Positions 1,870 through 17,760 of a DNA stretch of 44,428 nt are shown piece after piece (the first letter of the stretch is position 1; every line of letters begins with the position of its first letter). Under the pieces are notes generated by a model. That model searched no databases. It was given only the letters and a program-made list of their open reading frames with translations, and had not been told where the DNA came from. Source of the stretch: Clostridiales bacterium (GTDB lineage Bacteria > Bacillota > Clostridia > Lachnospirales > Lachnospiraceae); assembly GCA_012837865.1 (NCBI GenBank), contig DUQJ01000048.1:1-44428 (forward strand), given 5' to 3'. The position numbers and the translations under genes were made by a program.

Positions 1870-3360
1870 ATGAATGAAGTTTTAAATATTATTAAAGCAA
1901 ATAATATTACTTATGAACAAAAGGTTTTTTCACTAGCAAAATTTGCAGAAGATAGTTTAGATGTTTTAAATTTACCTGAAAAATTTAAATATTATTTTGA
2001 AAAAGGTGCTCTTTGTGATATGGGTGAAGGACACGCTCCATATCGTCCAAGGTATGTTATGCCTTATTACGATAAGTTTGTAAAACAGGGAAGCAAGTTT
2101 TTGCAAATAGATCCTCCAAAGGATTTAGATGAACTGTTAAATGCATTACAAATTTTATATTATCACATTCCTTCAATCACTCATAAACCTGTCTATCTTG
2201 GTAATATCGATAAATTAATAGATCCTTTCCTTGAAGGTTTATCTGACGAAGAAGCATCTGCAAAATTATCTAGATTTTTAAATTATCTTGATAGAACAAT
2301 TGCTGATGGTTATTGTCATGCTAATCTTGGACCAGAGGCAACTCGTGCAGGACGTTTAATATTAGAACTTGAAATGAAACTTCAAAACGCAGTTCCAAAC
2401 TTTACTTTAAAATATGACCCTGATATTACACCTGATGATTTTGCTAATTTGGCTATACAATCTTCTTTAGTATGTGCCAATCCTGCAATATGCAACCATA
2501 AACTTAATAAAGACACTTATTCAGATTATGGAATTTCTTCTTGTTATAATATACTTCCTGTAGGTGGAGGTGGAGCAACTCTCTCTCGTGTAGTTCTCCC
2601 TAGATTAGCTAAGTTAGCAACTGACCCAGAGCATTTTCTTAACACCTTGCTTCCTGATAGTTTGCAAGCACTTGGCGAATACATGAACGAACGTATTAGA
2701 TTTTTATTTGATGAGTCTGGATATTTCGAATCATCATTTTTAGTTAAAGAAGGTTTAATAGAAAAAGATCGGTTTATTGGTATGTTTGGTCTTGCTGGAC
2801 TATGTGATTGTGTCAACAATTTATTAGCTGATAAAGGATATCGCTATGGCCATGATAAAGAAGCTGATGATCTTGCTGAAAATATTTTAAAAGTTGTTTC
2901 TAATTTTGTTAAAGATTTTCCAGCTCTTCATTCAGAGATTGCAAATAATCGTTTCTTACTTCATGCACAAGCAGGACTGTCCACTGATCACGGTGTAACA
3001 AGTGGTATACGTATTGTTGTTGGTGATGAACCTGATAGCATATATGACCATTTAAGGCATTCTTCCCGCTTCCATAAGTATTTCCCAACAGGTTGTTCTG
3101 ATATCTTTGCTTTTGATACTACTGCTAAAAACAATCCTGATGCACTCTTAGATATTGTTAAGGGAGCCTTTTCTATCGGTGACAGATATATGACTTTTTA
3201 TTCTGAGGATGGTGATATAGTTAGAATAACTGGTTACCTTGCTAAGCGAAGTGAAATAGAGAAGTTTGACCGTGGTGAAGTTGTACTTCATGATACTGTA
3301 GTAAATGCAAGTAATAATTATAAACTTAATAGATTAGACGAAAGAAAAGTCCGCAATTAA
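1870..3360 (+). CDS. yjjI: YjjI family glycyl radical enzyme
   Basis: C-terminal glycyl radical motif IVRITGYLAKRSE (Gly455 at 3232-3234); Cys-containing GISSCYNILPVGGGG segment; activase nearby; RBS aaggaga. Confidence 0.88.
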   Translation: MNEVLNIIKANNITYEQKVFSLAKFAEDSLDVLNLPEKFKYYFEKGALCDMGEGHAPYRPRYVMPYYDKFVKQGSKFLQIDPPKDLDELLNALQILYYHIPSITHKPVYLGNIDKLIDPFLEGLSDEEASAKLSRFLNYLDRTIADGYCHANLGPEATRAGRLILELEMKLQNAVPNFTLKYDPDITPDDFANLAIQSSLVCANPAICNHKLNKDTYSDYGISSCYNILPVGGGGATLSRVVLPRLAKLATDPEHFLNTLLPDSLQALGEYMNERIRFLFDESGYFESSFLVKEGLIEKDRFIGMFGLAGLCDCVNNLLADKGYRYGHDKEADDLAENILKVVSNFVKDFPALHSEIANNRFLLHAQAGLSTDHGVTSGIRIVVGDEPDSIYDHLRHSSRFHKYFPTGCSDIFAFDTTAKNNPDALLDIVKGAFSIGDRYMTFYSEDGDIVRITGYLAKRSEIEKFDRGEVVLHDTVVNASNNYKLNRLDERKVRN

Positions 3361-14691: not shown

Positions 14692-15354
14692 TTAATTAAT
14701 AGTATATATTGTTATTGTTTTAGAATCATAGTCGATTAATCCATCCTTTTTCATTTTGTTTAACTCTCTACTTAATGATGTCCTTTGTATGCCCAATCTC
14801 TCTGCTAAATCTTTTTTTGTCATATTAAGATTTACCTTTTTATTGTTTTGAATACGATATTCATATTGTAAAAAGTCATTTATACGCATACGGATAGTCT
14901 TTAGAGATATAGAATCTATTTTATCCGTTAAGACTAGAGTTTTATCTGAAATTGTTCTTAACAAACCTGACATGAATTCTACATTCTTTTGACTTAAGTC
15001 AATAACTAATTGTTCATATATATGAAGTATCACCACTGCTGTATCTGCAACTACTGTCATAGGATATACATTCCTACTTGAAAACATTAAGTTTGCTCCC
15101 AATATATCTGTAATTGTAAAAACTGCTACTTTTAAAACATTGCCCTCTTCATCTATTTTTTGAATAGAGACATCTCCATTTAGAATTACATCCATAGAGT
15201 TACACACTTCGTTATTAAGGTAAATAACCTGGCCTTTGTTATATCTTTTGATTCGATAACTAGAATCATTAAATATATCTAATAACTCATTAGGTGAAAA
15301 TGTTTTAAAAAGTCCATTACCCATTATGATTTTAACAAATTTATCAATAGTCAT
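14692..15354 (-). CDS. Crp/Fnr family transcriptional regulator
   Basis: cNMP-binding-like domain and C-terminal HTH (MTKKDLAERLGIQRTSLSRELNKMKKDGLI). Confidence 0.88.
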   Translation of the reverse strand: MTIDKFVKIIMGNGLFKTFSPNELLDIFNDSSYRIKRYNKGQVIYLNNEVCNSMDVILNGDVSIQKIDEEGNVLKVAVFTITDILGANLMFSSRNVYPMTVVADTAVVILHIYEQLVIDLSQKNVEFMSGLLRTISDKTLVLTDKIDSISLKTIRMRINDFLQYEYRIQNNKKVNLNMTKKDLAERLGIQRTSLSRELNKMKKDGLIDYDSKTITIYTIN

Positions 15355-15394: not shown

Positions 15395-15408
15395 GTTACC
15401 AAGGTAAC
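15395..15408. promoter_or_regulatory. Candidate Crp/Fnr-type operator GTTACCAAGGTAAC
   Basis: Perfect GTTACC-N2-GGTAAC palindrome in the divergent intergenic region; centre 41.5 nt upstream of the +1 predicted from TATACT (15431-15436). Confidence 0.7.
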
Positions 15409-15481
15409 ATATATTTCACTTTTTATATAGTATACTATAGAAAATTATAAAATAAAAGTTTATTAAAACGGAGGTAATTAA

Positions 15482-15964
15482 ATGGATCCATTTACTTTGG
15501 TATTTTGGCTAGTAACAGTTATTTGGTTTATTGTTTCTATTATTAAAGATAAGAAGAAAACATTAAGTTCTATTAAAATGTCAAGTGGCATGATGAAACA
15601 TATGGCGGGAGAAATTATAGGTATTTTGTTTTTGATAGGAATTATTTTAACCTTCCTTCCCCCTGAGACAATTAAAGAATATGCTGGCCAATCAAGTTCT
15701 TTAATAACAACACTTATATTTGCTTTGGTAGGGTGTATTACATTAATACCAGCTTTTGTAGCATTTCCACTTGCTGGTTCTTTAGTAAATGCTGGCGCAA
15801 GCATAGTGCCTGTTGTAGCTTTTCTAACAACTCTTACTATGGTAGGCATAGTTACATTCCCTCTTGAAAAAAAAGAGTTTGGTACAAAGTTTACTTTAAT
15901 TAGAAACTCTTTAAGCTTTGTATTTGCAATTGTAATTGCTTTAATTATGGGGGTGGCATTATGA
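15482..15964 (+). CDS. Permease half-subunit (DUF318/ArsP-like)
   Basis: Polytopic; PAFVAFPLAGSLVNAGAS motif; GGAGG RBS; overlaps next gene by 4 nt. Confidence 0.7.
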   Translation: MDPFTLVFWLVTVIWFIVSIIKDKKKTLSSIKMSSGMMKHMAGEIIGILFLIGIILTFLPPETIKEYAGQSSSLITTLIFALVGCITLIPAFVAFPLAGSLVNAGASIVPVVAFLTTLTMVGIVTFPLEKKEFGTKFTLIRNSLSFVFAIVIALIMGVAL

Positions 15965-16689
15965 GTAAAACATTAAAATTTATTAAAAATAACAAGCTTT
16001 TAGTTTTAGTTGTTTTTGCCTATTTGTTTTTAGGTGTATTTATGCCTGATAAGGCTTTAGGCTCTTTAAAGAACAGTTTGTACTATGTTAAGGAAATGAT
16101 AATGATTATGCCTGTTATACTGCTTCTTACCGCACTTATTAATGCCTGGGTTCCTACTAAGACTATTGAAAAAAACTTAGGTAAAGATTCCGGTTTAAAA
16201 GGCAATATCTTTTCTTTTTTACTTGGTAGTTTTTCAGCAGGTCCAATATATGCTGCATTTCCAATAAGTAAAACACTGTTTTCAAAAGGTGCAAGTGTTT
16301 CAAATATTGTAATACTTCTTAGTACATGGGCAGTTGTAAAAGTACCAATGCTTTTAAATGAAGCAAAATTCCTAGGACCAAAGTTTATGGCTTTTAGATG
16401 GGTTTTAACTTCAGTTTCAATTTTCCTTATGGCTTATATTACTTCTAAATTTGTTAAAAAAGAAGATATACCATCCAATGATATTTCAGTAGATTCAGAA
16501 AAAAACCTTCTACATATTTCAGATGATTATTGTATTGCTTGTAATCTATGTGTTAAAATCGCACCAAGCCATTTTGAAATGAATAATAAAAAGGCTAAAG
16601 TTATTAATCAGATAATAGATAAAGATAATGAAGACGTTGTAAATCAAGCAATTGAGAAATGTCCATCAAAGGCTATTAGTTTCAAATAG
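15961..16689 (+). CDS. Permease half-subunit (DUF318/ArsP-like) fused to C-terminal ferredoxin domain
   Basis: Polytopic N-terminus with GPIYAAFPISKTLFSKGAS; C-terminal CIACNLCVKIAP...EKCPSKAI (four Cys arranged as in mono-cluster ferredoxins). Confidence 0.78.
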   Translation: MSKTLKFIKNNKLLVLVVFAYLFLGVFMPDKALGSLKNSLYYVKEMIMIMPVILLLTALINAWVPTKTIEKNLGKDSGLKGNIFSFLLGSFSAGPIYAAFPISKTLFSKGASVSNIVILLSTWAVVKVPMLLNEAKFLGPKFMAFRWVLTSVSIFLMAYITSKFVKKEDIPSNDISVDSEKNLLHISDDYCIACNLCVKIAPSHFEMNNKKAKVINQIIDKDNEDVVNQAIEKCPSKAISFK

Positions 16690-16749: not shown

Positions 16750-17244
16750 TTATATTCCTGTTTTAGTAAGTTTACTTAACAATCCTTTAACTGCTTCAAG
16801 AGGGAAATCTTCTTGTGGATTATCTAACATTGATTCTAACAATCTTCTCGTCTCATCGCTTTGTGGAAGCATATAACCCGACTCTCTAAACAAATCTTCT
16901 ATCATTATCCTATTAGATTTAGATATAGCAGTTGCAAATTGTCGTCTAATTGGATCATCAGTTGTTTTTGCTATACTTTCTGCAATTCTTTCTTGCTCAA
17001 CTTTACTTTTAATTAATTTATTTAATGAATTAATTACATTGTCTTCTTTAGCTTGTTGATGAGGATATATAAGTGGGACAATAGAAATTGCACCTGATGG
17101 ACAAGCATCAACACATTTCCTACAACCTTCAATACATTTATCTACATCTATTATACTATTTTCAGTATTAGTTGCACCTGTTGGACATACATAAAGGCAA
17201 AGACAATCTTTTGTACATAATGCAATATTTCTTACAGCTGGCAT
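16750..17244 (-). CDS. 4Fe-4S binding protein
   Basis: CTKDCLCLYVCP and CIEGCRKCVDACP clusters plus helical C-terminal extension. Confidence 0.85.
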   Translation of the reverse strand: MPAVRNIALCTKDCLCLYVCPTGATNTENSIIDVDKCIEGCRKCVDACPSGAISIVPLIYPHQQAKEDNVINSLNKLIKSKVEQERIAESIAKTTDDPIRRQFATAISKSNRIMIEDLFRESGYMLPQSDETRRLLESMLDNPQEDFPLEAVKGLLSKLTKTGI

Positions 17245-17247
17245 ATT

Positions 17248-17760
17248 CTATCTCCTTCCTACTTCAGTGATTTTAAAACTAGGCACCTTACATACCGGAC
17301 AAATTGCAGGTGGTATGTCACCTATATATACAAAACCACATATATCACAAACATATATTTTAGTGTTTTCTAATAATTCATTCCCACTCTTAGCATATCT
17401 GCCTAATACTGATTTTAACATTCTGCTAACTTTTTCACCCCATACTAATGCACGCAAAGCACCACGATCTTCTTTTTCTGATGATACTATATTGGCTTTA
17501 GCAAAGTCTTGTGTTAAATCATTATGTAAAAGTTCAGAGACTGGTTCAAAGCTTTCTTCATCTGTTAATTCTATTTTGCTTTTATAATAATCCGATATTT
17601 GATTAAACAATTGCATTTCTTCTTTTAAATATTGCTTCTCACAACCTTTTGCAAGATTGGAACATAATGCACTTAATTCACCTGCCGTTAGTTCTCTTAA
17701 ATCATCAAAATGCTCTTTCATTTCACTATCTTCAATAGTTCCTTTTTCATGTTTTATCAT
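17248..17760 (-). CDS. Rubredoxin-like domain protein with rubrerythrin-like helical N-terminus
   Basis: C-terminal CDICGFVYIGDIPPAICPVCKVPSFKI. Confidence 0.8.
   Translation of the reverse strand: MIKHEKGTIEDSEMKEHFDDLRELTAGELSALCSNLAKGCEKQYLKEEMQLFNQISDYYKSKIELTDEESFEPVSELLHNDLTQDFAKANIVSSEKEDRGALRALVWGEKVSRMLKSVLGRYAKSGNELLENTKIYVCDICGFVYIGDIPPAICPVCKVPSFKITEVGRR

Follow-up and report, generated by a model that had tools for sequence, protein, structure and literature searches.

Permeases of the ArsP_1/DUF318 family (PF03773, TCDB 2.A.119) are described in a family review as 4+4 transmembrane segments in one chain, with single 4-segment members also mentioned (PMC7176098). Rodionov et al. 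(2005) predicted a 'permease and ferredoxin-like protein' operon of C. tetani, CTC0897–CTC0898, to be controlled by the HcpR2 paralogue CTC0896, and gave GTAACnnnnGTTAC as the HcpR2 motif (PMC1274295). The HcpR of P. gingivalis is a heme regulator activated by NO (PMC12750200). Similar to the C. tetani operon, the locus studied here, which lies in a window (the whole analyzed stretch of DNA) of 44,428 nucleotides from a Clostridiales bacterium, carries a divergent Crp/Fnr regulator followed on the other side by a permease and then a 'ferredoxin-like protein'; judged by the published description, CTC0897–CTC0898 is very probably of the same locus type. However, the C. tetani operon was reported as a regulon entry only, in a text without the half-permease fusion, its distribution, the domain swap, the operator or the promoter geometry (PMC1274295).

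No report on a PF03773–ferredoxin fusion was found in a literature search that covered few subscription journals, and the fusion and its conservation are new here, as are the domain swap, the predicted antiparallel topology and the promoter geometry. To our knowledge, hardly any transporter is known to contain an iron-sulfur cluster as a built-in part. The features of the locus are as follows.

14692–15354, minus strand: divergent Crp/Fnr-family regulator, HcpR-like (Pfam cNMP_binding and HTH_Crp_2)
15395–15408, no strand assigned: palindrome GTTACCAAGGTAAC, predicted operator of the regulator (GTTACnnnnGTAAC conserved in orthologous intergenic regions)
15431–15436, plus strand: TATACT as the predicted −10 box of the permease operon, at 36 bases from the operator start, with the operator centre near −41.5
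15482–15964, plus strand: half-permease 1 (ArsP_1/PF03773, 160 aa), N-terminus predicted outside from the loop charge bias
15961–16494, plus strand: membrane part of half-permease 2, residues 1–178 (Pfam ArsP_1 and AlphaFold2), predicted antiparallel to half 1
16468–16509, plus strand: flexible charged linker, about residues 170–183 of half 2 (dip in pLDDT, variable length in the alignment)
16510–16686, plus strand: mono-cluster ferredoxin domain (Fer4_13), predicted cytoplasmic
16531–16551, plus strand: ligands Cys191, Cys194 and Cys197
16660–16662, plus strand: ligand Cys234

The half-permease 2 gene (15961–16689, plus strand, 242 aa) is joined to the half-permease 1 gene by a 4-base overlap, ATGA. 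A preliminary description of this DNA had noticed a related motif in each of the two overlapping membrane genes and read them as a split ArsP_1-type permease; both quoted motifs are present, and both halves pass the Pfam cut-off of 32.3 bits for ArsP_1 (43.2 bits for half 1, 49.6 bits for half 2). Half 1 matches positions 20–132 and half 2 positions 11–152 of the 294-position PF03773 profile, that is, the same profile region, indicating that they are two homologous halves. Consistently, PF03773 was recognised in all 65 half 2 orthologues. In AlphaFold2 models of the singly folded halves (mean pLDDT 85.7 for half 1 and 90.3 for half 2), each half spans the membrane with about five helices; those around GCITLIPAFVAFP in half 1 are broken, and a broken-helix repeat around a P-x-x-A-F-P-type motif is shared with the ArsP_1/DUF318 permeases. 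No solved relative of the permease fold was found in the PDB by profile or Foldseek. Unlike those permeases, the one in the window is encoded by two genes, bears an Fe-S tail, lacks conserved thiols and is under Crp/Fnr instead of ArsR control; the last two points also argue against an ArsP organoarsenical exporter. A chance or frameshift artefact was ruled out by the same arrangement in about 85 other loci, where the halves are separate adjacent genes, mostly with the 4-base overlap; apparent one-chain fusions in two loci (L040 and L085) proved to be frames merely extended upstream.

Based on the loop charge bias, the positive loops of half 1 are L1 and L4, while the positive regions of half 2 are its N-terminus, L2 and the C-terminal side, although L3 and L4 of half 2 are also positively charged and the topology is not clean. 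An antiparallel pair is therefore predicted, with the N-terminus of half 1 outside and both the N-terminus and the C-terminal tail of half 2 inside, and the loop charges of half 2 would place the ferredoxin domain in the cytoplasm. No conserved Cys or His was found in the membrane part of either half. The single cysteine of half 1, Cys85, is Cys in only 8 of 118 homologues, so that an arsenic or thiol-metal site at this residue was ruled out.

The C-terminus of half 2 matches Fer4_13, a single-cluster 4Fe-4S family, with 50.0 bits (Pfam cut-off 24.5), and its confident AlphaFold2 fold superposes on the mono-cluster ferredoxins 1siz, 2z8q, 1fxd and 1vjw at 0.9–1.4 Å, bearing out the earlier claim that a mono-cluster ferredoxin domain is fused to the second subunit. 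The fold and the four cysteines in the spacing C-x2-C-x2-C...C-P are those of the mono-cluster bacterial ferredoxins (D. gigas FdII, D. africanus FdI, and the Pyrococcus and Thermotoga ferredoxins), but the domain of the window is tethered to a membrane half-permease via the flexible linker, in which the pLDDT falls to 56 for residues 171–180 and below 50 at 176–179. Ala does occupy the place of an additional Cys, as had been pointed out; a Cys at this site would ligate a second cluster only, and its absence is usual in mono-cluster ferredoxins. Ligand conservation, on which the preliminary description had made its reading depend beforehand, was found throughout the 65 aligned full-length ferredoxin-type orthologues (42–68% identity to the half 2 of the window): Cys191, Cys194, Cys197, Cys234 and the proline after the last Cys are invariant, and Fer4_13 was recognised in 65/65. 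In a wider set of 81 proteins, C194 and C197 are kept in 79, C191 in 75 and C234 in 74, the exceptions being mostly truncated or tail-less proteins and proteins with a different Fe-S domain, PF04060.

The domain-architecture search that had been proposed for this permease recovered the same fusion in those roughly 85 other loci of species-level genomes. One scan of the genome collection returned 90 relatives, mostly from Clostridia, with some from Spirochaetes and other MAGs, the taxonomy of single MAG contigs being read with caution. When the membrane part alone was used as query, so as not to bias towards tailed proteins, 120 genomes out of a sample of 399 from the phylum proved to have homologues. 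Their half 2 proteins fall into three classes by C-terminus, i.e., with the ferredoxin tail, with an RnfB-type FeS domain (PF04060) or with no Fe-S domain. In a midpoint-rooted tree built on the membrane part of half 2 alone, the members of the ferredoxin class group together in one clade (local support 0.78), two losses being nested among them; the PF04060 class is monophyletic and sister to this clade (support 0.87), and the tail-less halves branch outside both. A sporadic fusion was thereby ruled out. Three tail losses were seen in all (L062, L064 and L131), the third in Acetoanaerobium noterae, whose half 2 ends at a stop immediately after the linker; A. pronyense has retained the tail. 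These losses indicate that the tail is dispensable. In the Tepidanaerobacter half 2 (L064, 1040–1594), the ferredoxin domain is absent through what seems a clean deletion in frame, with the final residues (..DLDKIIGFK) retained; this may be either real or an assembly effect.

The PF04060 domain occupies the position of the ferredoxin tail in all 8 members of the sister clade, at the same point of half 2, and it is unrelated to Fer4_13 in family and ligand pattern and absent from the protein of the window. That this half has received two unrelated Fe-S domains at one and the same point is the strongest sign that selection acts on the cluster itself. Since the sister clade carries an unrelated Fe-S domain there and the more distant halves carry none, the Fe-S tail is best read as an accessory of a functional split permease.

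The divergent regulator belongs to a group that is encoded within 4 kb of the pair in 67 of 80 loci. The best of its 41 solved matches is 9DAY, the P. gingivalis HcpR (E 7.6e-23), followed by 1o5l (7.2e-17), so it is closer to HcpR than to the other solved Crp/Fnr members. With HcpR it shares the absence of the FNR cysteine set and a 5-4-5 operator. It differs in lacking the heme ligand Met68, which is aligned with Lys66 in an HMMER alignment, in having its own Cys51, and in the operator, which is GTTACnnnnGTAAC rather than GTAACnnnnGTTAC, one base different per half-site. Cys51 is near-invariant in the regulator group (64/65). Position 45 is mostly His (56/65) and is Tyr in the window. Cys51 and the His at position 45 could possibly form a heme or thiol sensor site of the group's own, distinct from Met68 of HcpR. 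Given the absent Met68 and an operator unlike the HcpR2 motif, the signal may be another one, such as O2, redox state, another gas or a metabolite.

The sequence GTTACnnnnGTAAC was present in 46 of 58 regulator/permease intergenic regions. When 61 non-identical promoters were scored for matches to TATAAT at each offset past the operator, a peak of 4.87 out of 6 appeared at +36 on the permease side, against a mean over offsets of 2.15 (sd 0.60), and at least five matches at +36 were found in 43 of the 61; the same promoters gave no peak in the regulator direction. A −10 box at +36, with a start about 7 bases past it, would centre the operator at −41.5, where Crp/Fnr proteins bind as class II activators. 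Because this distance occurs on the permease side only, the regulator is very probably an activator of the permease operon. No other target of the regulator was found in the same genome, where only the permease copy among three operator matches is a plausible promoter copy; of the other two, one lies at a sugar-transport locus, and the other precedes unrelated genes at the end of a contig.

In Peptoclostridium acidaminophilum, a tail-less pair is accompanied by a regulator 49% identical to that of the window, by the same palindrome and by a TATTAT at +36. A tail-less pair with the same control indicates that the module consists of the regulator and the split permease, and that the Fe-S tail is an add-on.

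Within 4 kb of the pair, 41 of the 80 loci encode a small cupin, 16 a NapH-like Fer4_5 membrane Fe-S protein, 10 an Hcp and 4 a flavodiiron protein. A rough calculation (8 kb out of a 3 Mb genome with 1–2 hcp genes) gives fewer than one Hcp neighbour expected by chance in 80 loci; the 10 observed are not fully independent, as L011, L012 and L028 are close. A hemerythrin HHE gene adjoins hcp in L011 and L012, and in the genome of the window hcp sits on another contig. In the 10 loci that encode Hcp, the region upstream of its gene showed neither GTTACnnnnGTAAC nor GTAACnnnnGTTAC. As Hcp occurs in only 10 of 80 loci and its gene has no such operator before it, the link to an NO response is one of association. 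ArsR-type neighbours occur in only 5 loci, and the locus context points to redox or nitrosative stress, not to arsenic.

Lying under a regulator related to known NO sensors, and carrying a conserved Fe-S tail that is swapped in a sister group, the pair is probably a redox- or nitrosative-stress transporter of anaerobic bacteria. The mechanism that we favour, by a modest preference, is that of an inducible redox/nitrosative-stress permease under the control of an HcpR-like activator, in which a tethered cytoplasmic cluster tunes transport. The products of the two genes would pair in antiparallel orientation as a heterodimeric permease of the ArsP_1 (PF03773) superfamily, and the neighbouring activator would have the operon made on demand under redox or nitrosative stress. 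The [4Fe-4S] mono-cluster domain on half 2 would be a tethered cytoplasmic accessory linking transport to the redox state; most likely it would sense or report redox or NO damage and gate the permease, and feeding electrons to a substrate or partner would be a less likely role. Here we infer the heterodimer, its topology, the activation by NO or redox stress, the cluster assembly and the gating. More tentatively, the pair could be a redox- or NO-gated transporter in which a cytoplasmic [4Fe-4S] cluster on its own subunit controls or couples transport, two unrelated Fe-S domains having been recruited for the same job, as part of the nitrosative-stress response of anaerobes. Such a permease would add a transporter to the poorly understood nitrosative-stress regulon of anaerobes. 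The same permease with a ferredoxin tail, an RnfB-type tail or none, in some cases under the same operator, makes a natural comparison set, and these three tail states render it directly testable whether an Fe-S cluster gates or drives a permease.

Electron-coupled transport, in which the tail would be a working redox centre rather than a switch and would take electrons from cellular ferredoxins or from the NapH-like protein and hand them to a substrate or partner, is the best of the alternatives, though we consider it unlikely. Mono-cluster ferredoxins and RnfB FeS domains, the two kinds of tail, are classical electron carriers, the flexible linker suits a mobile carrier, and the NapH-like protein is found in the 16 neighbourhoods noted above. 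But the tail-less pair with the same regulator and operator and the three tail losses indicate that the basic transport step has no need of the tail, and the membrane part has no conserved redox-active residue or second cofactor site. A switch is thus favoured over obligatory electron coupling. Of the redox-gated or electron-coupled transport originally suggested, the redox link is supported by the promoter and the neighbours, while obligatory coupling is opposed by the tail-less outgroup halves, the P. acidaminophilum pair among them, and by the losses.

An efflux pump for metals or metalloids, of the ArsP, SO_0444 or SaoE kind and with an incidental tail, appears less probable still. It would agree with the PF03773 membership, with NCBIfam matches to the SO_0444 Cu/Zn efflux and SaoE families that are weak and far below cut-off, with the five ArsR-type loci, and with a Thermococcus tail-less pair adjoining an ArsR gene and a P-type metal ATPase. 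We do not favour metalloid transport, however, because the membrane halves have no conserved Cys or His and ArsR-type neighbours are so few, the dominant regulator being of the Crp/Fnr type.

Weakest is a role as a structural or assembly module, or as a soluble ferredoxin fused for expression only with no part in transport, which would fit a tail that can be lost and an outgroup without one but is very improbable, since four ligands invariant at 42–68% identity and an unrelated domain in the second clade with only Fe-S binding in common argue for selection on the cluster and not on shape.

The surroundings of the pair contain further redox proteins. Right downstream in the window and convergent to it (16750–17760, minus strand), a protein with Fer4_10/Fer4_6 Fe-S motifs and a 170-aa protein ending in a rubrerythrin-type rubredoxin domain (RUBY_RBDX) form another redox pair beside the permease. 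In five loci (L004, L026, L047, L049 and L059), a gene cluster near the pair encodes small NifX-like proteins and MinD-type ATPases into which ferredoxin motifs are inserted. The tail-less split permeases of other lineages (L102, L103, L106, L109, L110, L126 and L133) stand beside a cupin, PadR, a thioredoxin-reductase-like protein, or ArsR with a P-type ATPase, and such varied neighbours suggest that, across the whole family, split permeases probably handle several different substrates. Elsewhere in the window, a YjjI-like glycyl radical enzyme is encoded at 1870–3357 (plus strand).
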